Part shown: positions 3,223 to 38,666 of the stretch, in pieces
How the letters are laid out: each line of letters opens with the position of its first letter
How positions within the stretch are numbered: position 1 is the first letter of the stretch
Virus record (IMG/VR): IMGVR_UViG_3300031624_000004
Coordinates: 1-40,802 of that record
DNA length: 40,802 nucleotides
Strand: one strand, 5' to 3'
Origin: a virus
Notes under the pieces: generated by a model
What the model was told of the DNA's origin: nothing
The model's input: the letters and a program-made list of their open reading frames with translations, nothing else
The model's database searches: none
Translations under genes and position numbers: made by a program

Positions 3223-4185
3223 TTAGGTGTGGCGGATACCGTAAAGACGTGCTATCGACCTTTTGTTAATCAGGGCGAGACCTACAGGCCAGTTAACGTT
3301 GGTGCGGTAAGTAACCTGGTCTTCCAACAAACCGGCGTTCTTGACTTCGAGCTTGTGTTTCTGGATGCCCCAGAAGTCCGTGCCTTCACCGACTTTAACG
3401 GCGTAGATTGAGAAGTAGTCGCTACCCGCTACGCCTGCTACGTCTTCGTCTGCCATGACCTTTGTGGACTGGTCGGCATTTACACCCATGTCGTAGATGG
3501 GAATATTACCTCCCCACATGGTTACTAAATTGCCAAACTGGTCTTTCGTTTTATCCAGTACATCGGCAATTCTGAGTGCCTGGTTGATTTTGCGAAGGCC
3601 GATGTCGTTAGTACACATGAAGGTCGGCTTATGCCCGTCAATCGCATAGGTGAGTTTGTCCATCTCGGCCAGGAAGTCCAGGGCGTGCGCCTGGGTATCG
3701 GTGATAAGGTTCCCGGCGGTTGCCGATAGAATTTTCTGGGCAGACATATCACTACGGTTACAACGAACTTTCAACCCGTCAAAGTCGTCTTCATCGGAGA
3801 CGATAGAGCCGTTAATGAAGCTGTCGGTAAACTCGTATGCCATTGCCTTTACCTTCATTATTTGCTGGAGTGTCCGTATGTCCTCGATTGTCTGATTGTC
3901 CTCAACCATCTCCTTGTCTACGTCTATGTTGCCGCCAATGAGAGACAGACCTTCGGAAATGGGTTCGGTCGTACCAGTCGAGGAAGTCCACGCAGCATTC
4001 AGCTTTCTACGGGCTACACTGGGAAGGGTCTGGATACGCACCATCTTCTTATGGAGTGAGCCGATGGTTTCCCAGGGAATGTATTTCATCGGCTGGCTTT
4101 CCTCGTAAAGTGTCCTTGCCACCGATTTCACCCCTGGGTCTTTTGCTATCTTTGCGAACTCTACTAGAGTAAAAGTTCCTGCCAT
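3223..4185 (-). CDS. major capsid protein, HK97-fold type
   Basis: This 320-residue product has the size and layout of an unprocessed HK97-fold coat protein. It has a helical N-terminus, then ARRKLNAAWTSSTGTTEPISEGL, a long spine-like helix (residues about 95-125, DNQTIEDIRTLQQIMKVKA), and the FDGLKVRC segment often seen after the spine helix. A beta-rich C-terminal half follows. A scaffold-like gene lies just upstream and a cement-like gene just downstream, the usual head order. The ribosome site is AGGAGG. There is no delta domain, so a separate scaffold is expected, and the gene at 4201-4878 fits. Confidence 0.8.
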   Translation of the reverse strand: MAGTFTLVEFAKIAKDPGVKSVARTLYEESQPMKYIPWETIGSLHKKMVRIQTLPSVARRKLNAAWTSSTGTTEPISEGLSLIGGNIDVDKEMVEDNQTIEDIRTLQQIMKVKAMAYEFTDSFINGSIVSDEDDFDGLKVRCNRSDMSAQKILSATAGNLITDTQAHALDFLAEMDKLTYAIDGHKPTFMCTNDIGLRKINQALRIADVLDKTKDQFGNLVTMWGGNIPIYDMGVNADQSTKVMADEDVAGVAGSDYFSIYAVKVGEGTDFWGIQKHKLEVKNAGLLEDQVTYRTNVNWPVGLALINKRSIARLYGIRHT

Positions 4186-12263: not shown

Positions 12264-14042
12264 TTAACCTCCTGCCAGTCTTGCTTTTACTTCTTCTACC
12301 GGCATCTGAGCTAACTGTTCTACCGGAATACCCAACTGTTTACTGGCTTGTTGTAGTATCTCCATAGCCTCCGGTGGAATACCTTGTTGACCACCCTGTT
12401 GCTGTTGCCCCTGCATGGGGGAAGATATTGAAGATAAAAATTCCACTGCACCCTGCTTATCACCCTTATCCAGAAGCTCCTGAGCGACCCTTCTAACCTG
12501 TACATTGGGCATCTGCTCAATCATTCTTCGTATCTGCTGCTCTTCAATCCTTTCGTCTTCCGCATCGGGGTTCGGAATCTTCATATATTTCTCTCTAGCG
12601 GTGTAATCTGAGAGAATGGGTCTACCAAAAGGCTGCCGCGCCTGTGTCGCAGCTAAGGCCATCTGTAACTCACCGGCTTCATCTCTGGGTAACTTGGGTT
12701 CGCACGTCACGTTGATATACCAGTCGTCCTCTATATCGTGTGGGTTGGCCTCCATGACGAAGAACTTACCGCTTGAATCGAATCCTTTTAATTTCATCTT
12801 CTGCCCTTTTGTCTTAAACTGAATCAATATCTCCTCACACAACCACCTGAAAGCGTCAGCCAACATACCACAAAACGGGTCATAAGATGAACGGGTGTTA
12901 TCGTTCATTATTGTCAAAGCTGTTCCTGAATGTGTACCTGGGTCTATACCATACCCGATAGGGTAAGGCACGGTACTTTCCTGCTTGTCTCTATCTAAGA
13001 CTGACAATATAACAGCAGACTCCGAGGGTACTTTCGGCGGGTCAAGGGTCTTTAAGACTTCGCCCTTCTTTAGCCTGATAACCTTCCAATTACCGAAGGG
13101 GTCTCCCTCAATAGACTTTTTCCCATCGTCTGTCTCATAGGTCATCGTACCGGCTACGCTCTTCTCGGCGGTGTCCATTATGAATGACACTTGCTTGTTC
13201 TTGGGTTCGTAAATTCCCCTTGAAGAAGCGTAAACAGAAGCGGCCCTCTGTTTAAGAGTGGGTTCGTTCTCTTTTGTAAATACGGTAGGCATCCCGCTGG
13301 CGAAACCCAGCCAGATTGGGACGTGATTCAAACCATGAGGGGTAGGGTCTTTAACGAACTCACTTTCCTTTTTCCCCTCTGCACTCCCTTTAACTAATAC
13401 GACCGCATTATTCACACGGTCGAAAAAGTCGATGACTATAGCATCCTCACCCTCTTTTAGTGTGATGTCGTACCTTTCCTCGGCCTCAGCTTTTGAGACG
13501 TGATAGAGAAACGCCCCCCAAACTAAACCGTCCTGTCCCTGCTCCCAAGCCATGTGCATAGGGTCTAAAGCTCTAATGTCTACCTGAGTGTCTTTACTAT
13601 CGTCAACGTAGATTAAACATTTTAATCCCGCCATCCCCCTGCCACAGCCATGCCAGCTCAGGCCGTTTCTTAAAGGAGGTTCACCTAAAGTCCGAAGTCT
13701 CCTGTCCGCCCTGTCCAGGATACCTGTTATTAATTGCTCGCCTTTATTAGCGGCGTCCCTTTCTTTTTCAGGTGCGTCTTCCGGTGTTACAATCTGCCAC
13801 ATTAGATTAGCCTTGTTGACACCATGAAAAACCTTTAAGAAGTCATTTTTCGGTGACGGAGAAGTATAAGACTGGTGGTCTTTCTCCGCCTCATAAGGTA
13901 CTAAAGAAAAGAGATTAAAGTCGTTCTCCATCTGTGTAGTTAGCTCATCGAATGAGTCGGAACTCATCTTCTTATCCACCATTTCAAGTATCTGGCCGGC
14001 GGTGTACTTCTTCTCTTTAGGTTTCTTTTCTTTCTTTGCCAT
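12264..14042 (-). CDS. portal protein (592 aa)
   Basis: A 592-residue product directly after the terminase large subunit, the usual place and size for a portal of a short-tailed phage. It begins with a lysine-rich stretch. The body is a mix of helices and beta elements (VDIRALDPMHMAWEQG, VWGAFLYHVSKAEAEERYDI) as in portal wing regions. Residues about 320-380 hold a probable clip and stem region. The C-terminus (from about 530) is glutamine and glycine-rich, then helical (IPPEAMEILQQASKQLG), like the crown or barrel helices of portals. The dodecameric ring would sit at the capsid vertex for packaging and ejection. Confidence 0.82.
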   Translation of the reverse strand: MAKKEKKPKEKKYTAGQILEMVDKKMSSDSFDELTTQMENDFNLFSLVPYEAEKDHQSYTSPSPKNDFLKVFHGVNKANLMWQIVTPEDAPEKERDAANKGEQLITGILDRADRRLRTLGEPPLRNGLSWHGCGRGMAGLKCLIYVDDSKDTQVDIRALDPMHMAWEQGQDGLVWGAFLYHVSKAEAEERYDITLKEGEDAIVIDFFDRVNNAVVLVKGSAEGKKESEFVKDPTPHGLNHVPIWLGFASGMPTVFTKENEPTLKQRAASVYASSRGIYEPKNKQVSFIMDTAEKSVAGTMTYETDDGKKSIEGDPFGNWKVIRLKKGEVLKTLDPPKVPSESAVILSVLDRDKQESTVPYPIGYGIDPGTHSGTALTIMNDNTRSSYDPFCGMLADAFRWLCEEILIQFKTKGQKMKLKGFDSSGKFFVMEANPHDIEDDWYINVTCEPKLPRDEAGELQMALAATQARQPFGRPILSDYTAREKYMKIPNPDAEDERIEEQQIRRMIEQMPNVQVRRVAQELLDKGDKQGAVEFLSSISSPMQGQQQQGGQQGIPPEAMEILQQASKQLGIPVEQLAQMPVEEVKARLAGG

Positions 14043-15422
14043 TTATCCCCTTCTATGTGACGGCCTTAAATCGTCTACTTGAGCCCTGTTCATTATATCT
14101 CTAGTAACGTAGCCGTATTTGTCAATTAGACCGTAGATAACAGCTTTTATAGCATGATTGTTTTTATCGTCTGGTTCGTTCCCGATTACCACCGTACCAG
14201 TTCTGTCCTTTTTCCACATATAAGGGGCGGTCTCTCCAGTAAAAGGATTGGGGCACACCCCGAACTCTGATAATAACCCCTGACATTTAGTACCTACATA
14301 AAACCTCGGTTGGTGGTCTATCGGATTAACATTGATAAACGTATTGAGTCTATCGCGGCCCTGTGCTTCCTCAACCCTGTTTGATGCAAGGTTCAAGCCT
14401 GACTTCTGTAACCACACCTCGGCAACTGCCGGCATTGCCTGGTGTTGTCTGGCTGCTATGTCTACAACACCGCCTTTAACGAGCTTCCACCAGTCCTTTT
14501 GTAAGCAGACATCTATAATCTGCTCAGTTACCAATCCTTGTTCATATATCTCATCTACTACATAGACGGTATCATTGGCTAGCTGGACAACCTCTACCGC
14601 ATAAGCTCCGGCGTATCCTGGGTCTATCCAAAGATATACAGGAGCGTCCTGTATCTCAAGTTCTTTAACATGAATTAGATACTTGAAGTTTGGAAAGACT
14701 AGACCTTTAGGCGGACACGGCACACCGCCGAATCTCTCTAAAAAATAGTCTTCGGTATGATTGGCTTTTAGTCTTTGTATTTCTGGATTATTGTAACCGC
14801 CGGGGAATATCTTCTTATTGCTCCACGACGGCAAAGAAAATGACTTCCCTCTCTGACCTGGTAATTGGTATTGCTTCCAGAGTTCAGGATACCACCCTAT
14901 CGAACCTTCAAACGTTCCAGTACCTACAACCCACCCTCTTTTCTCCGCCGTTCTGTCACATACCCGCTCGTACTCTTGAAGGGATACCTGCGCCACCTCA
15001 GCAATGATTATACCATCGGGAGCTTCCGAGCCTACCTTTAACCAATCCTTGAGAGACCACGTTTTTACAATCGTCCCAGTCTTTAACTTTAGAGACCACT
15101 GGCCGTTTTGCGGGGTGTGTATCTCTGTAGGATTTACAGCCTGGAGTTTTAACATCGCCTGCGCTATATATTCAAACTCAGCATGGCATCTGTCATAGTC
15201 TCTTCCGGCTACCCAGTATAAATCACCCTCCCAGAACCTGGCATTGAAATACTCGGCAGCTACATAACTCTTACCAGCTCGTTCTCCTCCACCTCCTAGT
15301 ATCTCCCGCTCACTACAATAGACGATAGAGCTTTGTTCAGGATTCAACTCATGTTCAAGCTCTTTTAATACCTCGTCTATGTCGTGCTTTACATCTTCCT
15401 TACTGCGTATCTTCGTTATCAT
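14043..15422 (-). CDS. terL: terminase large subunit (packaging ATPase and nuclease)
   Basis: A 459-residue protein. The Walker A motif is GGERAGKS (residues 45-52). A hydrophobic strand ending in acid residues (GIIIAEVAQ, about 137-145) is the likely Walker B. A C-terminal RNase H-like nuclease begins with YLWIDPGYAG (about 263-272), whose Asp is the first catalytic acid. A late D-K-N-N-H-A-I-K-A segment carries the last acid. It pumps DNA into the prohead through the portal encoded next to it. The start overlaps the small subunit gene by 23 bases. Confidence 0.9.
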   Translation of the reverse strand: MITKIRSKEDVKHDIDEVLKELEHELNPEQSSIVYCSEREILGGGGERAGKSYVAAEYFNARFWEGDLYWVAGRDYDRCHAEFEYIAQAMLKLQAVNPTEIHTPQNGQWSLKLKTGTIVKTWSLKDWLKVGSEAPDGIIIAEVAQVSLQEYERVCDRTAEKRGWVVGTGTFEGSIGWYPELWKQYQLPGQRGKSFSLPSWSNKKIFPGGYNNPEIQRLKANHTEDYFLERFGGVPCPPKGLVFPNFKYLIHVKELEIQDAPVYLWIDPGYAGAYAVEVVQLANDTVYVVDEIYEQGLVTEQIIDVCLQKDWWKLVKGGVVDIAARQHQAMPAVAEVWLQKSGLNLASNRVEEAQGRDRLNTFINVNPIDHQPRFYVGTKCQGLLSEFGVCPNPFTGETAPYMWKKDRTGTVVIGNEPDDKNNHAIKAVIYGLIDKYGYVTRDIMNRAQVDDLRPSHRRG

Positions 15423-21553: not shown

Positions 21554-21777
21554 TCCGGTAACTCTCCGGCTAGGAGCTTATCAATAAATACTTGCGGTAC
21601 GACATTAAAAGAAGCATCCCTTAATAACTCCCCTATCTTCTTACGGTTAAGCTCTGCCTCTTTGTCGGCTACGGCTCTATACCTCAATAAGTCATAAGGA
21701 ATATGGTTTAAGGCATCTTGCACAGTTCTTTTTATATTGAGTGCTTTTATCTGTTCGTCAGTTATCAACCTTTTCAT
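21550..21777 (-). CDS. uncharacterised helical protein (75 aa)
   Basis: Start ATG 21777 has CAGGAGATGCCGAA upstream. A longer frame from 21807 runs into the preceding gene. The product is helical throughout (TDEQIKALNIKRTVQDALN, KEAELNRKKIGELLRD) and ends LLAGELPE. It overlaps the NinG-like gene by four bases, so it may act with it, for example as a partner in recombination. No family recognised. Confidence 0.55.
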   Translation of the reverse strand: MKRLITDEQIKALNIKRTVQDALNHIPYDLLRYRAVADKEAELNRKKIGELLRDASFNVVPQVFIDKLLAGELPE

Positions 21778-22646
21778 TTCGGCATCTCCTGTCGGATATG
21801 GTAACATCCCCGGTCTACGGCAAAAGCGAATTTATATTCGACCGGCCACTTGAGAAGCGGCTTGAGGTTATCTTTAAGGAAGACGGGGATGCCGGTGGCA
21901 TCGGCGGCGGCGATGATTTCCTGCACCCACTCGATGCGGGGCTGGGCCGTCCACTTCTTGCCGAAGGGCATGAGCGTCAAGGCCGGGTATCGGGCTACCA
22001 GTGCCTCCATGTCCGCCTTGGTGCCGGTGCAGGCGCCGATGATGAGCCAATGAATTTCCTCAAACCACAAAGCCCAAGGTGGATGATGATATTCGCACCA
22101 ACTTAATAAAGGCTCAAGGGACATAAATTTTACTTTAGCTTCTATGTCTCTTAACCAGCCGAGTCCAGCCGCAGACATATGTTCATTCGTCGCCGTCACA
22201 CCGGGCCAGCAGTTATCGGGGAAGGGGCTGAACTTCGGCAGGTTCTGGGGCTGCTTGGTTAGCAGGTAGAAGCGGTCGTCGGGGTGGCGCTGGCACTCGT
22301 CGAGGACGGCCCGCGTCCATTCCTCTGGTATGCCGATGCCGAATAAATCGGACATATCACAGGGGAAAATCCCGCGCGGGGTCTTGCTCCGGGGGATATG
22401 GAGGCGGTTAGGCCAGAGGCGGGGGTAGAAGGGGTTATATTCTGCGTTCGTGGACATATATTCACATGGGCCACCTTCGAGATATAGATTCTTGACCCGC
22501 CCGTTGGCGAGCTTGTGGGCGTAGCAGGGGAAGCCGCCGCCGCGGCAGAGGCCGTCGTCGTGGTTGCGGCAGCCGGTGATGGGGTTCGTGGTGTAGCCCT
22601 GCGTGCCGTTGGGGTTCTTGACCCAGGGTATCGTTGTGTGGTTCAT
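21774..22646 (-). CDS. DUF5131 (Gp37/Gp68 family) protein (290 aa)
   Basis: Start at ATG 22646 with the GGAGGGCAAGG site, not the longer frame from 22745. Residues 1-60 carry TIPWVKNPNGTQGYTTNPITGC, the cysteines C25 and C33 (GLCRGG) and PCYAHKLANG. Then come FPCDMSDLFG and YLLTKQPQNLPKF, PGVTATNE and KFMSLEPLL. These match the phage Gp37/Gp68 family, a TIM barrel distantly related to radical-SAM and photolyase-like lyases. The function of the family is not established; DNA or nucleotide modification has been suggested. Higher GC than neighbours hints at transfer. Confidence 0.78.
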   Translation of the reverse strand: MNHTTIPWVKNPNGTQGYTTNPITGCRNHDDGLCRGGGFPCYAHKLANGRVKNLYLEGGPCEYMSTNAEYNPFYPRLWPNRLHIPRSKTPRGIFPCDMSDLFGIGIPEEWTRAVLDECQRHPDDRFYLLTKQPQNLPKFSPFPDNCWPGVTATNEHMSAAGLGWLRDIEAKVKFMSLEPLLSWCEYHHPPWALWFEEIHWLIIGACTGTKADMEALVARYPALTLMPFGKKWTAQPRIEWVQEIIAAADATGIPVFLKDNLKPLLKWPVEYKFAFAVDRGCYHIRQEMPK

Positions 22647-22759
22647 CCTTGCCCTCCTAAAAATACCTTGATTGTGGCAAGAATAAAGTAGGCTATTACC
22701 AGGCCGGTAGCAATGCCCCCCAGATAAGTAATTAGGTATTTCCATCTATCGCTAATCAT
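22643..22759 (-). CDS. single-span membrane peptide (38 aa)
   Basis: A 38-residue protein, MISDRWKYL then a hydrophobic helix (GIATGLVIAYFILATIKVF). GGGAGGGAATAGGG precedes the ATG and the stop overlaps the DUF5131 start. An upstream in-frame ATG near 22807 would give 54 residues with a poorer site. Small membrane proteins in early operons may block superinfection or host functions. Confidence 0.6.
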   Translation of the reverse strand: MISDRWKYLITYLGGIATGLVIAYFILATIKVFLGGQG

Positions 22760-23596: not shown

Positions 23597-24034
23597 TTAT
23601 TTCACGAAACTAGACCTGCCACCACCAACATCAGGCTCGTCATTCAGGTTTATCTTAGGAACATTGAAGCCTTCTGTAATTCTCTTAAATATCCTCTCCC
23701 GTTCCTTTTTAACAGCCCGTTCTATATAGGGCTGGATAGCAGAAACAAAGATAGAAAGAAATTCATCTACATGCGGTTTTATATTGACATAGGTTTTCTC
23801 GCTACATTCAGATATGGTGTGCGCTAGTAGGGAATCCAGTGCCTCCCTCAACTCCGGTAAAGGCCGCTGCTGGATACGGAGGACTTTTTCTACATAGAGA
23901 TAAACAGAGTTCGCCAAGCCTTCCGCAATATCATCCTCCGACCAACCCTTCGCTGTAATTCCGTGAACATTCAAAAAGGCAAGGAAATCTTTGATTAGTT
24001 CCCCTTTTGGTAGATACTTCTCGTAGTCGCTCAT
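23597..24034 (-). CDS. uncharacterised early protein (145 aa)
   Basis: A 145-residue helical protein starting MSDYEKYLPKGELIKDFLAFL. A middle region holds LANSVYLYVEKVLRIQQRPLPELREALDSLLAH. The C-terminus has IERAVKKERERIFKRITEG followed by a polar tail. Its start overlaps the stop of the initiator-like gene (ATGA), so it may be a replication accessory factor such as a helicase loader. There is no Walker motif, which argues against an ATPase. Confidence 0.55.
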   Translation of the reverse strand: MSDYEKYLPKGELIKDFLAFLNVHGITAKGWSEDDIAEGLANSVYLYVEKVLRIQQRPLPELREALDSLLAHTISECSEKTYVNIKPHVDEFLSIFVSAIQPYIERAVKKERERIFKRITEGFNVPKINLNDEPDVGGGRSSFVK

Positions 24035-24672
24035 TTTGTCTCCTCCTTGCGTGTCCCATCGGCATTGTATTTATCGGGATGCAAGCGGGCTAAGTCATCG
24101 CCGTTCCGCGCTATCATGTGGTCGTATTTGCCTCCATAAAATCTGTTTGGGTCATCTTCCTTCACCTTTTTCCTTCTTCTGTCTCTACGTCCCCCCTTCC
24201 AAGGGGGGACTACAGGGGGGTTATTACCTAATCCTTTTTTCCTATTCCCTACCTCCCTACCCCCTACCCCCCTATTCCCTACTGGTAGAGCTACCCCCTT
24301 GCTGGGGTAGGGCTTGGGTAGAGCTGGGGTACAATCACTAGGGATTGGGGCAAATGTCCACTTACTGGGGTTTTTGATATCTTGGTGAACCAAGAACCTG
24401 ATAACGCATCCGAAGGGCTTGTTTTCAAACTGGAACTTCTTTATTTTCCCGGCGGTCTCTAGTTTATCCAGCCACTCGCCAATATCCTTGCCGGAGATAT
24501 CTTGGTCATAGGGGAAAAGCTGCGCCTTGATTCTAGCCGGTCTCCATTCAAATACCCCCTGGTCATCAGATAAATTCCATAAACCTATGTATAATAAACG
24601 GGCATCACGGGGAAGTTCGCCAAGTTTTTCATCAATCCAGAACTGAGGCTTTATCGTTCTTATTCTTGGCAT
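24031..24672 (-). CDS. replication initiator-like protein with winged-helix N-terminus (213 aa)
   Basis: Residues 1-100 match the start of a large family of phage and Firmicute-type replication proteins: RIRTIKPQFWIDEKLGELP, RLLYIGLWNLSDDQGVFEWRP, IKAQLFPYD, LDKLETAGKIKKF and VIRFLVHQDIKNPSKW. This is a winged-helix DNA-binding module. Residues 120-170 are a low-complexity Gly/Arg/Pro linker, whose DNA is repeat-rich (see 24191-24310). The C-terminus is charged. The family recruits the host helicase at an origin, and no phage polymerase is encoded. An HNH gene overlaps its start. Confidence 0.65.
   Translation of the reverse strand: MPRIRTIKPQFWIDEKLGELPRDARLLYIGLWNLSDDQGVFEWRPARIKAQLFPYDQDISGKDIGEWLDKLETAGKIKKFQFENKPFGCVIRFLVHQDIKNPSKWTFAPIPSDCTPALPKPYPSKGVALPVGNRGVGGREVGNRKKGLGNNPPVVPPWKGGRRDRRRKKVKEDDPNRFYGGKYDHMIARNGDDLARLHPDKYNADGTRKEETK
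24191..24310. other. candidate replication origin inside the initiator-like gene
   Basis: Within 120 bases there are a perfect CCCCCCTT-CC-AAGGGGGG palindrome (24191-24208), two copies of CCTATTCCCTAC 30 bases apart (24241 and 24271), GGTAG-AG-CTACC (24284-24295) and CTACCCC/GGGGTAG arms (24291-24310). An AT-rich stretch lies at 24221-24240. In lambda the origin lies within the initiator gene O, so the placement is suggestive only. Confidence 0.4.
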
Positions 24673-25142: not shown

Positions 25143-25358
25143 TTAGCGTAAAGCTCCGTTGCAAATATCATGTTCCTTGCTGCCTATTAGCCTGGCTCCA
25201 AAGTTGCCAGAGCCCCAGAGGTGCTTTTCAGAGACGAAAGGGAATGAGACTTTCTTACAAACGTCCTTTTGCCACCCGCATTGTAGGCAGAAAAGGAACA
25301 CTCCGTAGTGGTCGGAGTCCTGGCTTACTTGGCCGCCGCAGCGGGGGCATTTTTTCAT
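25143..25358 (-). CDS. zinc-ribbon protein (71 aa)
   Basis: A 71-residue product: CPRCGG (residues 4-9), then FLFCLQCGWQKDVC. This is a two-knuckle zinc ribbon of the type found in transcription factors, and a C-terminal segment without features follows. GAGGAAAGA precedes ATG 25358. It runs up to the HNH gene without a gap. Likely nucleic acid binding. Confidence 0.65.
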   Translation of the reverse strand: MKKCPRCGGQVSQDSDHYGVFLFCLQCGWQKDVCKKVSFPFVSEKHLWGSGNFGARLIGSKEHDICNGALR

Positions 25359-25418: not shown

Positions 25419-25631
25419 TCATTTCCCCTCCGGATAACGGGTTTTGAGTTCATCTAAGGCTTCTCTGTTAGGATAAGCCAGATTAAATTTCTCCTCTATA
25501 AAATCTATTATCTCACGTGCTGTTTGTTGACGGGCTACTCTTGCTGCAATCTTAGCAATCTCTAGCATACCTTCACAAATATCTAAGGGCTTAAACTCCA
25601 CCCCTTGTAGTTCTTTTTTCTCTGCCATCAT
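25419..25631 (-). CDS. small early protein with RQQTAREI motif, paralogue of 30023-30322 (70 aa)
   Basis: Start at one of two adjacent ATGs (25631 or 25628) in the context GGGGGATATGATGG, overlapping the previous stop. The 70-residue product carries ARVARQQTAREIIDFIEE and ends LKTRYPEGK. The same two elements occur in the gene at 30023-30322 (RQQTAREIFKEIE, LKARYLEGK), so the two are paralogues. Many phage genomes carry such proteins. Function unknown. Confidence 0.65.
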   Translation of the reverse strand: MMAEKKELQGVEFKPLDICEGMLEIAKIAARVARQQTAREIIDFIEEKFNLAYPNREALDELKTRYPEGK

Positions 25632-25870
25632 ATCCCCCAATCCTTTAGCTGAGTTTGCCATTTTAGAGTACCGATAGGATAGTTATTGTTTATCCACTCC
25701 ACTACTTCCCTTCTCCCCTCTTGCTTACCTGTCTTGAAAGAGATTTCAGCTTGTTTTGTGGCTACTGCTTTTGGAGTATGAATTAATCCAACCCCCTCTT
25801 CATACCTCACGGCACATTTTAGTAATTCAGTATCATCCATTATTGTATCTTTAGCTTCCTGTGGTATCAT
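25628..25870 (-). CDS. small early protein (80 aa), ends in KDWGI
   Basis: ATG 25870 has AAAAGGAGAAGCCG upstream. A longer frame to 25939 overlaps the 42-residue gene. The 80-residue helical product has AVATKQAEISFKTGKQEGRREVVEWI, a pattern common in early phage proteins, and ends TLKWQTQLKDWGI. Its C-terminus resembles the 28-residue product at 29937-30023 (EWQNLITKWGI). Confidence 0.65.
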   Translation of the reverse strand: MIPQEAKDTIMDDTELLKCAVRYEEGVGLIHTPKAVATKQAEISFKTGKQEGRREVVEWINNNYPIGTLKWQTQLKDWGI

Positions 25871-25899
25871 CGGCTTCTCCTTTTCGGCACTTATGGGTT

Positions 25900-26028
25900 T
25901 TAAGCTGTAATGGGTGCACGTACCCAATAAAACCAGCATTTGTAAGCAGTGCTAGGTATTTCTTTTGGCTCTGGTATTTTCCCAAAGCACCAATATTCCC
26001 AACTTTGGCCAGCATCCTGAGTTATCAC
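25900..26028 (-). CDS. tryptophan-rich small protein, GTG start (42 aa)
   Basis: A GTG-started frame with AAAGGAGAGGGAAATA directly upstream, right after the structured RNA candidate. The 42-residue product is unusually aromatic (QSWEYWCFGK, AYKCWFYWVRAP), with four Trp. It may be a small domain that binds RNA or protein. Coupling to the RNA candidate is a guess based on position. No family recognised. Confidence 0.55.
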   Translation of the reverse strand: MITQDAGQSWEYWCFGKIPEPKEIPSTAYKCWFYWVRAPITA

Positions 26029-26049
26029 TATTTCCCTCTCCTTTCACTG

Positions 26050-26400
26050 GCACTCTTGGGGGGGGCTACTTTCCGTATCAGTTACCCTACCGGCGTCTAG
26101 CCCATGCGAGCTATCCTTCACCCCCCTTGAGTGCTCCGGCCAGTTGAGTTTACGACTCAGATTAAGCGGCATCCAAGTACTCAACGGAGGATGAGTCCCC
26201 CTATTCAGGTGCTTAACCCCCTTTCGGGTGGCCGGTTGCCAGCCATTGGGACAATCTATACCCACTTTTCAGCCCGAAGCTCCTGCACCCATCTGGGTGG
26301 CTGGCACTTGCTAGAGTTTCACGCTTTTCACGCTTACCCGTATGATAGAGGACACTGTGTATACTCAGTTTCCGCCTCCGTTTTCCGACACTCCAGCAAG
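26050..26400 (-). ncRNA. large structured RNA candidate (about 350 nt, four stacked domains)
   Basis: The 412-base gap 26029-26440 has no convincing gene on either strand. On the minus strand it forms four consecutive domains, each closed by a strong helix. These are 26390-26400 with 26307-26317 (11 bp, one G-U), 26298-26306 with 26237-26245 (9 bp), 26229-26235 with 26136-26142 (7 bp), and 26129-26134 with 26050-26055 plus 26121-26126 with 26058-26063. The linkers are 0-1 nt. Inner hairpins include CCC-GAAA-GGG, AGC-TTCGG-GCT, TTAAGC/GCTTAA and TGAGT/ACTCA. The G-U pairs and the GAAA loop favour the minus strand. I know no family with this layout. Confidence 0.75.
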
Positions 26401-26440
26401 CTATTAAGTTATTTCGTAAGTATCCCTTCATCTACAGTAT

Positions 26441-26980
26441 TCACTTCTTAATCAAAATAAAATCAACCATGCTTGTAGGATAATGTATCACAGTTCTACA
26501 TGGCACCCTTTCTAGTATTTCGTCTGTAAGCTTCTCCATGTATGGTATTCGCGGCTTGCGTGGGAAATGCTGATAAACCAGAATGTCCACGTAGGATATA
26601 AATCGGTTTATATCACGGTAGTAAAGATAACGCCTATCATTATCTCCAGCACTTTTTACCTCAATGCCATTATCAGGGTCAAAAAAGAGAATCCCATTAA
26701 TTTCTTCTATCTTTATGTCCTCTATTTGGCGATAGTAATTTTTTACATTTACAAATCCACATCCCTCTATTTCCTCAATGTTCCTCCGCTCACCATCCGT
26801 CAACTCTTGCAGGAATAAGGCTAACTGGTCATATGCTTTAATATTGGTGAACTTAGAATCCTGCCCTGGCACATCATCGTTGAGCATCCAGCATACTTGA
26901 ATGTCACAGTTACGAGACAGTTCATTAAGCGTCTGATACTTATGGTAATCGTTTATATCGCCTACGAATTGATTCCTCAT
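26441..26980 (-). CDS. conserved protein with QFVGDI and FFDPDNG motifs (179 aa)
   Basis: A 179-residue protein. NQFVGDINDYHKYQTLNEL (residues 3-21) and GILFFDPDNGIEV (about 95-107) match a widespread uncharacterised family, usually seen as QFVGDIGDYxKYxLLR and FFDPDNG. Two acidic residues in FDPDNG may bind metal. The base composition is clearly more AT-rich than the SSB-like and 338-residue-class genes nearby, suggesting separate acquisition. It lies directly upstream of the structured RNA candidate in the same direction and next to a cysteine-rich small gene. An enzymatic or defence-related role is possible but unsupported. Confidence 0.55.
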   Translation of the reverse strand: MRNQFVGDINDYHKYQTLNELSRNCDIQVCWMLNDDVPGQDSKFTNIKAYDQLALFLQELTDGERRNIEEIEGCGFVNVKNYYRQIEDIKIEEINGILFFDPDNGIEVKSAGDNDRRYLYYRDINRFISYVDILVYQHFPRKPRIPYMEKLTDEILERVPCRTVIHYPTSMVDFILIKK

Positions 26981-26982
26981 TA

Positions 26983-27153
26983 TTAACGTTTCCTATACTG
27001 CTTACATGAATAAACCACAGCGCAAGCCTTGCATCCCATTAATTTCAGACTTTCAACTTGGGCTATCAAATAATCGCTCGTTGCCGCACAAGTTTCTTGG
27101 AATTTACAAGTTTGACATTTATCATTGGCTTTTAGTTCATCTTCTGTATTCAA
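26983..27153 (-). CDS. cysteine-rich small protein, TTG start (56 aa)
   Basis: A frame from TTG 27153 with GAGGCTGAAATAAA upstream. There is no in-frame ATG before the cysteine region. The 56-residue product has CQTCKFQETC (13-22), CKAC (41-44) and a last Cys at 50. This spacing resembles zinc-binding knuckles or an iron-sulphur site. Its stop lies two bases before the next ATG. No family recognised. Confidence 0.5.
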   Translation of the reverse strand: MNTEDELKANDKCQTCKFQETCAATSDYLIAQVESLKLMGCKACAVVYSCKQYRKR

Positions 27154-27202
27154 TTTATTTCAGCCTCATACCTGTTATCAAGGGATACTTACCAGTTATT
27201 TT

Positions 27203-32389: not shown

Positions 32390-32426
32390 CTCTAACTCCT
32401 TATTATAATCAGTGCTTTACTCTATT

Positions 32427-32455
32427 ATTATAATCATACCGATACGGTTTGTCAA
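32427..32455 (-). promoter_or_regulatory. perfect consensus promoter with operator in its spacer
   Basis: Minus strand TTGACA (32450-32455), 17 bases, TATAAT (32427-32432). The spacer contains ACCG-ATA-CGGT (32438-32448), an 11-bp inverted repeat. A repressor bound there would block the polymerase, the classical arrangement for a tightly controlled strong phage promoter. Confidence 0.88.
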
Positions 32456-32487
32456 CCCCCCCAATTTGGTAGTTAAAAAGAGAAGAG

Positions 32488-32509
32488 CCCCCGCCCTTTC
32501 GGGCGGGGG
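32488..32509 (-). terminator. terminator of the late operon
   Basis: A 9-bp all-G/C stem (CCCCCGCCC and GGGCGGGGG). On the minus strand the loop is GAAA and it is followed by CTCTTCTCTTTTT. It separates the end of the late genes from the promoter at 32455, 33 bases further on. Confidence 0.8.
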
Positions 32510-32539
32510 TTGACAATTAGATATATTGTTTGTTATATT
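32510..32539 (+). promoter_or_regulatory. plus-strand promoter of a small RNA candidate
   Basis: TTGACA (32510-32515), 18 bases, TATATT (32534-32539). It starts directly after the late terminator stem and points against the late genes. There is no plus-strand gene downstream. Confidence 0.65.
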
Positions 32540-32545
32540 ATAGTT

Positions 32546-32620
32546 GTTACGGCGAGTCCTTGTAGGACGGCATAAGTGAAGCCCCCCGCTACCACCATCA
32601 GGGGGGCTTCACGCTTTTAG
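32546..32620 (+). ncRNA. small RNA candidate (about 70-75 nt) ending in an intrinsic terminator
   Basis: From the predicted start (about 32546), the transcript has a short hairpin GTCCT-TGT-AGGAC (32556-32568). It then has a 12-bp perfect stem GTGAAGCCCCCC (32576-32587) with GGGGGGCTTCAC (32601-32612), and GCTTTT. It lies in the gap between late and early blocks, antisense to late readthrough. No open frame of useful size is present. Confidence 0.55.
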
Positions 32621-32648
32621 GAATTTTACGGGGCCACTTTAGCTGGAC

Positions 32649-33998: not shown

Positions 33999-35960
33999 CT
34001 AATCTATTGCTTCGCTCACTGAAACACTGTATATCCCCTCATTACCAAACTCTGTACCCTTTTCCGTACCAGGCATTGCAGCCATTTCAACAAAGTATTC
34101 CGTGTCGTTTTTGTTTCCGGTAGGATAGAAGCTCATTAAAGTCCCTGTTTCTATCGCTGTCTTTAGGGCGTCTATTATATCTTGCCCTGACTGGTCTCCC
34201 TGAGACATCGCCATGACATTAAAATCAAACCCCCACAATACGGGAGGTGTAACACGATACTCCAAGATAAAAGACTCTATTTTTGGCGAATTGGTAGTGG
34301 TAGACCCTCTAACCAAATCTGCTTTCAACTGGATACTCTCAAAGGAAACCCCTACAGAATCGCCACTGGCGGGGAAACTTAAAGCCGTAGGTCTCGGAGA
34401 GGATTTAAAAGTACCTAATTCAGTCCAGGCCGTATCTTCATCGATTCTGTATGAAACAGTAATATATTCATTAGCGTTGCAGTCTTTAGTAACCGCCCTT
34501 ACTTTATGGGCGACTTTGGACATGGACTCAAAATCAGAGTGAAATTTAGGATAGATGATGTAACCAGTTTCGGCGTAGGTATGACCAGCTATCTTGGTAA
34601 CGTTATCGCTAACGTTGGGGAATGGTAAACTTTTTACATCAGTCCCCTCTCCGAAATATAAAGTACCTGAATCCCACATCAAAGCCCTTATGGGGGTATT
34701 AACCGAACCTATACGTACAGGATGCCAGTGTTTTCCTGTTAAATATCTCTTTAATATACAGGACTTCTTGGTATTCCCCCCGTCTAAAGCTATTACTAAC
34801 CAGAAACCTACTCCAACCATGTCCGTGACGACGCCCTGTAAGTCCTCAGGCATACCATCATCCATGTCGGGGCCGATAGGAGTAACCACACCACTGATAA
34901 TCTGGTAAATCCCCTTGCCTACCGCAACATAAGTTGCGCCCCTCCAATAAAGACCCTTTTTACCGGAGGTTAAGTCCTTTTCCCATGTAACTTCGGTGGG
35001 GCCGAAAACAAAGTTAGTAAAAACATCCAGATAGTACATACCTTGAGGGGTTAAAAAGTATAAAGTAGGGTTGTCCGAAGCATCCCTGCCCACGAACATT
35101 CCGGTAATATTAGAGGGTAAATTGGGGAAATTAGGCTTTGAAGTCCAGTTACTAACAATGTCATTAGCTGCGGAATATGCGAATCCGGCGTTTGCAGAAT
35201 TTAAAGCGCAAAGGTGGTTTTCAAACTGAGCCAGATATGCAGATGGCAAATCCCCCGAAGCATCTTTAGCGCAACTGACCCACGAAGCACCTACGTTACT
35301 GTTTGTTCTTATTGAGTTATTATTTAAAGAACCTATACACAGAAATGAGCCTATACCAGACTCAATCAGGGTGGTGACTTCCCGCCCTAAAGTAACAGAG
35401 GCACTCCTGGCGGTGGTGATAGCCCTGGAAGCAGTTACTGCATGACCGAAAGTGACTTCGGCTGTTATTGTATGATGATGTTCAGTGTAGTAAACTGTTA
35501 TTCGTATGTGGTCAACATATACAGTGCTTGCCTCGGCATAGCGTTCCACCGCAACAATAATCCCATCTATAGTAGCCCCACTTGGGATAGCAAACCCAAA
35601 GTTTGTGGCCTTTAAGTAATGGCTTATTGCGTATTTATAACAAGCATAAACAACACCGAAATTTGAGTTATTTATATCAGATGGAGACCAACTTTCATCC
35701 CATAAATCATCTGCTGCCCCATAAGATATATATTGCTCTACATCAGTAATGGTTACATCATCAGACTTATTTGTGCTACCAATATTACCATCTGATTTCA
35801 CAATTTGAATCGCATAGATTTTCTTTGCAGCTGTGCCAACAACCACTGAGGCATAACTATCATCGCTTGTTTTGGCATTATCTGGATTAGACCACGTTTC
35901 AGTTCCAATGGTGTCGTCATCGGCCATTGTCCCAGGGCTTAAAGCACCAGTATCAGCCAT
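33999..35960 (-). CDS. tail propeller/fibre protein with inserted N-terminal module (653 aa)
   Basis: Residues 1-170 hold WSNPDNAKTSDDSYASV, YLKATNFGFAIPSGATIDGI and VDHIRITVYY, a beta-sandwich module common in phage tail proteins. Residues about 171-205 hold two units of the TASVxxGxxVTASR repeat, also seen in the gene at 37236. From about 212 (SFLCIGSLNNNS) to about 500 the sequence is a beta-propeller with W-x-S-K-P, FLTPQGMYYLDVF and LYFGEGTDVKSLPF blades. The C-terminus is beta-rich. The start overlaps the upstream stop (TAATG). The propeller seems to continue the 146-residue product encoded upstream. Confidence 0.65.
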   Translation of the reverse strand: MADTGALSPGTMADDDTIGTETWSNPDNAKTSDDSYASVVVGTAAKKIYAIQIVKSDGNIGSTNKSDDVTITDVEQYISYGAADDLWDESWSPSDINNSNFGVVYACYKYAISHYLKATNFGFAIPSGATIDGIIVAVERYAEASTVYVDHIRITVYYTEHHHTITAEVTFGHAVTASRAITTARSASVTLGREVTTLIESGIGSFLCIGSLNNNSIRTNSNVGASWVSCAKDASGDLPSAYLAQFENHLCALNSANAGFAYSAANDIVSNWTSKPNFPNLPSNITGMFVGRDASDNPTLYFLTPQGMYYLDVFTNFVFGPTEVTWEKDLTSGKKGLYWRGATYVAVGKGIYQIISGVVTPIGPDMDDGMPEDLQGVVTDMVGVGFWLVIALDGGNTKKSCILKRYLTGKHWHPVRIGSVNTPIRALMWDSGTLYFGEGTDVKSLPFPNVSDNVTKIAGHTYAETGYIIYPKFHSDFESMSKVAHKVRAVTKDCNANEYITVSYRIDEDTAWTELGTFKSSPRPTALSFPASGDSVGVSFESIQLKADLVRGSTTTNSPKIESFILEYRVTPPVLWGFDFNVMAMSQGDQSGQDIIDALKTAIETGTLMSFYPTGNKNDTEYFVEMAAMPGTEKGTEFGNEGIYSVSVSEAID

Positions 35961-37235: not shown

Positions 37236-38666
37236 CTACCATGTTTCTACGTCTCTATTATCTCCTGTTTCACTAATTTCCCTGTTAGTACCCACTTCTG
37301 ATATGCTTCTATTCGTACCTATTTTTTTAACCCGTCTTACCATCCTTGTAACGATGGAAGCCCAGATATGATGACCGTGTGTAACCGATGCCGAACGGAA
37401 GTAACCGGCTAATCTTGAGGCCGTGACCGCACGGCCAAAAGTAACGGAGGCAGTCCTACTTATAGAGATAGTTCTTGATGCCGAAGCTACTAAACCACGA
37501 TTTACAGAGGCACTTCTAAAGAGATTAGCAAGGCGTGAAGCCGTAACCGACAGACCCCAATCTACAGACGCCGACCTTGATACATTGACAGCCCTGGAGG
37601 CAGACACCGCACGACCTAAGATAACGGTGGCAGTTCTTGGATAGTTTGCTAAACGAGAAGCTGTAACGGCGTGTCCAAAATTGGTAGATGCTGTTCTAAA
37701 AAGGTTTAATAAACGACTGGCAGATACGGCACGCCCGAAATCGACTGAGGCAGTCCTACTTATAGAGATAGTTCTTGATGCCGAAGCTACTAAACCACGA
37801 TTTACAGAGGCACTTCTAAAGAGATTAGCAAGGCGTGAAGCCGTAACCGATAGCCCCCAATCTACAGACGCCGACCTTGATACATTGACATTTCTGGAAG
37901 CTGAGACAGCGTATCCTTGAGAAACGGAGGCTAATCTGGGATAATTCGCTAATCTAGAGGCTGTTACTCCGTGTCCAAAGTCTACAGAAGCGGATATGGG
38001 GTAATCGGTAACTCCGGCTGCTGGCGCAATCGCTACAAGCTGACCTGCGTTTCTCGCAGGGCCACCAGTAATGTTCGCCGTTCCGTTCCCAGTAGCAGAC
38101 GTTTCCGGCCTGGTGGCATAACCCAATGACATACCTAAATCAGCGGTCAAGTCAGAGGGTAAATCATAAGCCTCTTCCCAAGATGCGGGATTGTCATTGG
38201 CGATAGCATAACCACTCAAGGTGTAATCATTTGCAACACCACAAAATAGACAAATTTCGCAGTTTGCTACAGAGGGTGTTAAACCGTCCGATGTAACTAC
38301 TGTGTCGTAGTTAACTTGTCCCTCGTCTGCATTTATAGGGGCTGAGGGGTCGTGCCCATACCAGGCAGTGATTACCCCTCTGTTTGAAGCAGCACCAGTA
38401 GCCGTAAAAGTAAAATTTGCAGCGGCCACATCATCGGCATCAGCGATTTTCCAGAATAACTCTGTTGCTATGTAATAAGACGTTCCATCTTGCCTTATAC
38501 TCACCCAATCATCAGGGGCAGTGAAAGACTGCACGGACTCGATGCTAGTCCCAACTACATGGGCAATCATCAGGTCGCCGACTTCTAATCCGGCTGGCTT
38601 CGTGATTACACAGCTTGTTGAGTCCGCACCAGGGCTAGAGCCATAAGAACGAAAGGTTACTGCCAT
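37236..38666 (-). CDS. tail fibre-like protein with eleven 20-residue repeats (476 aa)
   Basis: Residues 1-220 form a lectin-like beta-sandwich (TFRSYGSSPGADSTSC, KPAGLEVGDLMIAHVVG, GVITAWYGHDPSAP). Residues 225-444 are eleven tandem 20-residue units with consensus (S/T)ASVxxGxxVxASRxxxxxR. Units 1-5 and 6-10 form a 100-residue super-repeat. Residues 445-476 are a short polar tail (GTNRSISEVGTNREISETG). Repeats of strictly equal length, without gaps, indicate a fibrous beta structure. It is probably a receptor-binding or tail fibre protein, and the repeat number may vary. The start overlaps the preceding stop within the duplicated 74-bp junction. Confidence 0.65.
   Translation of the reverse strand: MAVTFRSYGSSPGADSTSCVITKPAGLEVGDLMIAHVVGTSIESVQSFTAPDDWVSIRQDGTSYYIATELFWKIADADDVAAANFTFTATGAASNRGVITAWYGHDPSAPINADEGQVNYDTVVTSDGLTPSVANCEICLFCGVANDYTLSGYAIANDNPASWEEAYDLPSDLTADLGMSLGYATRPETSATGNGTANITGGPARNAGQLVAIAPAAGVTDYPISASVDFGHGVTASRLANYPRLASVSQGYAVSASRNVNVSRSASVDWGLSVTASRLANLFRSASVNRGLVASASRTISISRTASVDFGRAVSASRLLNLFRTASTNFGHAVTASRLANYPRTATVILGRAVSASRAVNVSRSASVDWGLSVTASRLANLFRSASVNRGLVASASRTISISRTASVTFGRAVTASRLAGYFRSASVTHGHHIWASIVTRMVRRVKKIGTNRSISEVGTNREISETGDNRDVETW
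37447..37590. repeat. 144-bp repeat in the fibre gene, copy 1 (300-bp period)
   Basis: Matches 37747-37890 with two mismatches (37551, 37554). The offset is exactly 300 bases, five repeat units, so the frame is kept. It shows a recent duplication or unequal recombination in the fibre gene. Confidence 0.95.
37747..37890. repeat. 144-bp repeat in the fibre gene, copy 2
   Basis: Second copy of 37447-37590. The flanking units also match at protein level but have diverged in DNA. Confidence 0.95.

Follow-up and report, generated by a model that had tools for sequence, protein, structure and literature searches.

A 412-nt intergenic gap in an uncultivated phage very probably encodes a structured RNA of four domains on the minus strand, as judged from the strand, the fold statistics and the lack of coding, and by comparison with covariance models of known families this putative RNA is an orphan without a match in any catalogued family. 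The window, i.e., the whole stretch of DNA analysed, comprises all 40,802 bases of an IMG/VR phage record whose minus strand carries most of the genes (Table 1). The gap extends between the stop codon of the QFVGDI gene (26441) and the GTG start codon (26028) of a 42-codon Trp-rich open reading frame (ORF), exactly where the original prediction had placed it, and shares the minus strand with both flanking genes. Its G+C content is 0.50-0.57, against approximately 0.42 just downstream and 0.30-0.45 upstream.

Support for a structured RNA comes from single-sequence folding statistics, a kind of evidence that is weaker than covariation. In comparison with dinucleotide shuffles, which keep the composition, the minus strand of the entire gap folds at -144.3 kcal/mol (z -2.68, with none of 100 shuffles as good) and the plus strand reaches a z of -1.05. 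The minimum free energy (MFE) of the core region (26040-26405) is -139.6, which none of 400 shuffles reaches (-122.2 +/- 5.6). When a closed domain is defined by a closing helix of at least 6 bp with a mean pair probability of at least 0.95, the core fold contains four such domains, as had been proposed from the sequence, and three or more are found in 0 of 400 shuffles. A scan of 1,348 segments on both strands of the window, in which domains were counted at any nesting level (a count of outermost domains missed the locus, as an outer helix can enclose it), reached three domains only in the frame on this locus, and by the same count 300 shuffles never exceeded two. Thus, the predicted multi-domain architecture is unique within the window. 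Folding energy alone is not: the gap at 32.4 kb folds more strongly because of terminator-like hairpins. The latter gap (32390-32648) gives a stronger folding signal than any other part of the window. Strong sigma-70-like elements lie on each of its strands, it carries two long G+C hairpins, CCCCCGCCC-TTTC-GGGCGGGGG and GTGAAGCCCCCC...GGGGGGCTTCAC, and it is probably a promoter/terminator hub.

The fold is also strand-specific. Taken separately, domains 1 to 4 have z values of -2.67, -1.12, -3.83, and -3.84 on the minus strand and -1.94, -1.62, -1.42, and -2.02 on the plus strand, and 13 of the 111 predicted pairs are G-U, which bears out the earlier claim that these pairs suit the minus strand only. 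Such pairing on one strand is difficult to reconcile with an element that works at the DNA level through hairpins of the DNA itself, for example an origin of replication or a packaging site, although the gap contains abundant hairpins and runs of G and lies about 1.4 kb from the replication initiation gene. Moreover, 25700-26600 lacks repeats of at least 14 nt, and the iteron-like repeat of this phage lies within the initiator gene rather than in the gap, so that an origin is more likely to be located there. We therefore regard a DNA-level element as quite unlikely. The repeat itself (24247-24282) is a tandem array of a 15-nt unit (CCCTACCCCCCTACC, 2.4 copies) and may mark a possible origin.

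Three ORFs cross the gap, and their codon scores (-0.11, -0.18, and -0.26) fall below those of 21 reference phage genes (-0.02 to +0.24). The two on the minus strand have no PHROG family and no relatives in IMG/VR. The poor scores of all three frames and the absence of families and relatives for these two argue against a protein-coding gap. On either side of the gap, the QFVGDI protein has no identifiable family and no relatives in IMG/VR, and the Trp-rich ORF, for which relatives were sought in phages and none found, has a codon score resembling that of the genes of this phage (0.15) and a good Shine-Dalgarno sequence.

In the predicted fold, the closing helices of the four domains are 12, 7, 7, and 6+5 bp long (pair probabilities 0.96-1.00), and the linkers between successive domains are 0, 2, and 1 nt; the lengths first proposed (helices of 11, 9, 7, and 6+6 bp with linkers of 0-1 nt) were close and differ in these details. 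Domain 1 contains a hairpin (26373-26350) with the apical loop AGUAUACA, in which the palindrome GUAUAC (26364-26359) could allow the formation of dimers; it was noticed post hoc, and a palindromic hexamer loop is present in 7% of shuffles too. The closing helix of domain 2 has a pair probability of 0.99 when the domain is folded alone, yet the domain as a whole is weak by its z value and its own pairing is lost in some flanking contexts. Both kinds of loop named in the original prediction were found: the GAAA loop is located at 26225-26222 in domain 3, and the UUCG-type loop of domain 2 (approximately 26278-26274) is weak, with a probability of 0.53. What had been read as a possible pseudoknot in domain 3 (26143-26149 with 26179-26185) is actually nested pairing at the base of a 15-bp stem (probability 0.99), in which 26185-26171 pairs with 26162-26155 and 26149-26143 around a bulge, CGUAA; this stem has probabilities of 0.96-0.99 and is kept in all contexts. 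A candidate loop-loop contact within domain 3 would join UAAGC (26215-26211) to GCUUA (26167-26163) and could be extended to 8 bp (GGUUAAGC/GCUUAAUC); the 5-bp match was noticed post hoc, and one of this kind arises in 1% of shuffles of domain 3 and in 2% when the whole RNA is shuffled. In domain 4, a GUAA tetraloop (26085-26082) caps one of the branches, and the helices have probabilities of 0.93-1.00 in all contexts.

Table 1. Coordinates of the predicted RNA, its neighborhood, and selected phage genes in the window
Feature	Position	Strand	Description or basis
Predicted four-domain structured RNA (core)	26050-26401	-	MFE, domain count, helices, scan, contexts
Domain 1	26401-26306	-	12-bp closing helix with 2 G-U pairs, probability 0.96; interior mostly ill-defined in the fold
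Domain 2	26305-26238	-	Closed by 7 bp; holds three small hairpins, with a UUCG-type loop in one
Domain 3	26235-26136	-	7-bp closing helix; GAAA, UAAGC, and GGGGGA/UCCUCC hairpins; 15-bp stem
Candidate loop-loop (kissing) contact, domain 3	26163-26215	-	5 bp, Watson-Crick
Domain 4	26134-26050	-	GCACUC/GAGUGC, 6 bp; 2x2 AA/AA internal loop; GGGGG/CCCCC, 5 bp; two branches
Shine-Dalgarno-like AAAGGAGAGG	26035-26044	-	Immediately 3' of domain 4; left unpaired in the predicted fold (sequence, fold)
Trp-rich ORF, 42 codons, GTG start	25900-26028	-	Directly downstream of the gap
QFVGDI gene, 179 aa	26441-26980	-	ORF; stop 40 nt before domain 1
ORF crossing the gap	26044-26265	-	
ORF crossing the gap	26213-26431	-	
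ORF crossing the gap	26131-26451	+	
Major capsid protein	3223-4185		
Portal-like protein	12264-14042		Weak match
Large terminase subunit	14043-15422		
Replication initiation protein	24031-24672		
HNH protein, 160 aa	24660-25142		Adjoins the replication initiation gene

Domains 3 and 4 are kept in all of eight flanking contexts, and domain 2 opens in two of the eight, when downstream sequence is included. In one further context, with the upstream flank removed and the downstream flank kept, domain 1 opens and domain 2 falls to 0.71. The sensitivity of domain 2 to downstream sequence would suit a switch, and the end of domain 4 (26050) is followed at once by the Shine-Dalgarno-like sequence and the GTG start codon; the RNA might thus be a cis-acting leader that controls translation of the Trp-rich gene and perhaps of later genes, e.g., by hiding and exposing the Shine-Dalgarno sequence. 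It would resemble structured, riboswitch-like mRNA leaders in having a ribosome-binding site directly downstream; however, it is far larger than these, no expression platform was recognised, and no leader family matches. At 350 nt and four domains, such a leader would be of very unusual size among those of phages. In addition, the main fold leaves the Shine-Dalgarno sequence free, a search for terminator-like hairpins found none, and the downstream 42-codon gene is without a known role. We consider a leader to be a real but minority possibility. For the RNA as a whole, no promoter-like site was detected on the minus strand at its 5' edge, nor was a terminator-like site found within 25600-27200, and therefore it probably belongs to a longer transcript.

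No known RNA family could be recognised, in agreement with the initial impression that tmRNA, RNase P RNA, 6S RNA, and group I/II introns do not match. Rfam gave no match at gathering thresholds across the whole window, and with permissive filters and E<=10 the 661 bases around the gap yielded a single match, to an animal miRNA, which lies outside the gap and is meaningless. Covariance models of group I and group II introns, RNase P RNA, 6S RNA, and HEARO likewise gave no match at E<=10, and ARAGORN detected neither tRNA nor tmRNA genes in the window. HEARO, or omega RNA, belongs with IscB-type elements. The predicted RNA shares with it the proximity of an HNH gene; however, the HNH protein of this phage is short, and its gene lies approximately 0.9 kb downstream with several genes in between.

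GOLLD and ROOL, which were the nearest idea at the outset, have recently been solved as RNA-only cages whose function is unknown, ROOL forming a homo-oligomeric cage via conserved kissing loops (PMC12286853). Like ROOL, the RNA proposed here would be a multi-domain large noncoding RNA of phages or prophages with kissing loops, the contact being a candidate here, and like GOLLD it would be an ornate phage-encoded RNA (PMC12286853). However, ROOL env-120 is 659 nt long and many GOLLD RNAs exceed 800 nt and have a conserved 3' region, as compared with approximately 350 nt in a 412-nt gap, and both families often occur near tRNA islands (PMC12286853). Neither covariance model matches at E<=10, and a close relationship is not supported. 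As an ornate multi-domain phage RNA with possible kissing loops, the predicted RNA might still be a divergent member of GOLLD, ROOL, or another Rfam class that is invisible to the models; given the permissive search of the 661 bases, a size about half of that expected, and a window without tRNA genes, we judge this to be extremely unlikely.

Homologues of the RNA were sought by blastn in plasmids and in phages (for the latter also at E<=10), by DNA searches of the records of 12 relatives, with a covariance model of domains 3 and 4 in the records of 50 relatives, with two covariance models in Chloroflexota genomes (301 and 400 genomes), with nhmmer over the collected loci, and in IMG/VR with two DNA words and two translated frames; none of these searches revealed a homologue. 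This absence constitutes weak evidence, because the covariance models, each built from one sequence, are insensitive and the phage lineage is rare. All candidates that came up were checked and dismissed as chance matches. Collinear short matches in one relative, in which the RNA ends lie 459 nt apart, are both in coding DNA without excess structure (z +0.44), and a 14-nt match in another amounts to no more than a brief stretch of identity at a small ORF. In a third, a match to the model of domains 3 and 4 (19 bits; GCCGGUA..GUAA..GA..CGGAAA) is inside a gene and antisense to it, and the model of domains 1 and 2 finds nothing there. Of 400 Chloroflexota genomes, two gave matches to the latter model (E 0.02 per genome), which fall inside oxidoreductase-like and sugar-transporter-like open frames, and the similarity of 15 IMG/VR contigs that share a 16-mer of domain 4 ends with the word. 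The lack of any relatives, together with the small unconserved ORFs that cross the gap, would also fit a degraded remnant of an old gene or mobile RNA element, whose G+C-rich composition folds well by accident. However, shuffles that keep this composition fall short of the fold, and no intron or mobile RNA of Rfam matches, which makes a remnant very unlikely.

The phage lineage itself is rare and poorly sampled. Relatives of its terminase at 68-74% were found only in IMG/VR contigs, and most of its other genes have no relatives among the collected relative loci. The sole cellular relative of the terminase that we found is in a Chloroflexi MAG (39%), which offers a hint, rather than a finding, that the host may belong to Chloroflexota. 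Among the other genes are one for a DUF5131-family protein (21774-22745; 29-30% to proteins of Enterocloster and other phages) and one for a 71-aa zinc-finger-like protein (25143-25358) with a weak match to the restriction alleviation protein Lar (E 0.0017, under the curated cut-off); the products of 37236-38666 and 33999-35960, in which VTASR-type repeats (GHAVTASRLAN...) recur many times, are probably structural. In one relative (G004, IMGVR_UViG_3300005253_000482, loci L056 and L057; terminase 71%), coding density under the standard code is only 0.39-0.70, and reassignment of any one stop codon fails to restore it in full; recoding was therefore rejected, and frame errors or decay are more likely.

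Considering the evidence together, a noncoding RNA that is released from a polycistronic phage transcript and acts in trans has, in our judgment, about an even chance of being the correct reading. An RNA of approximately 350 nt would be made within a long minus-strand transcript of the replication/early gene block and fold into four domains, each autonomous, and the loop-loop contact might make domain 3 more compact. Host RNases might release it, as proposed because the RNA is a compact block between two messages, and the released RNA would then serve a structural or regulatory role. We infer the transcription from an upstream operon, the release from the message, and the function in trans. 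The weak and context-dependent domain 2 and the ill-defined interior of domain 1 count against this reading. A further, rather doubtful extension is that the RNA represents a new class of mid-size ornate phage RNAs with four autonomous domains, a kissing contact within domain 3, and a domain 1 palindrome through which copies could pair; released from a phage operon, it would act in the infected cell as a structure made of RNA alone. Known structured RNAs of very large size are few in phages, and a smaller, unrelated RNA in an uncharted phage lineage would suggest more variety than the catalogue shows; its size would also make probing and cryo-EM convenient.
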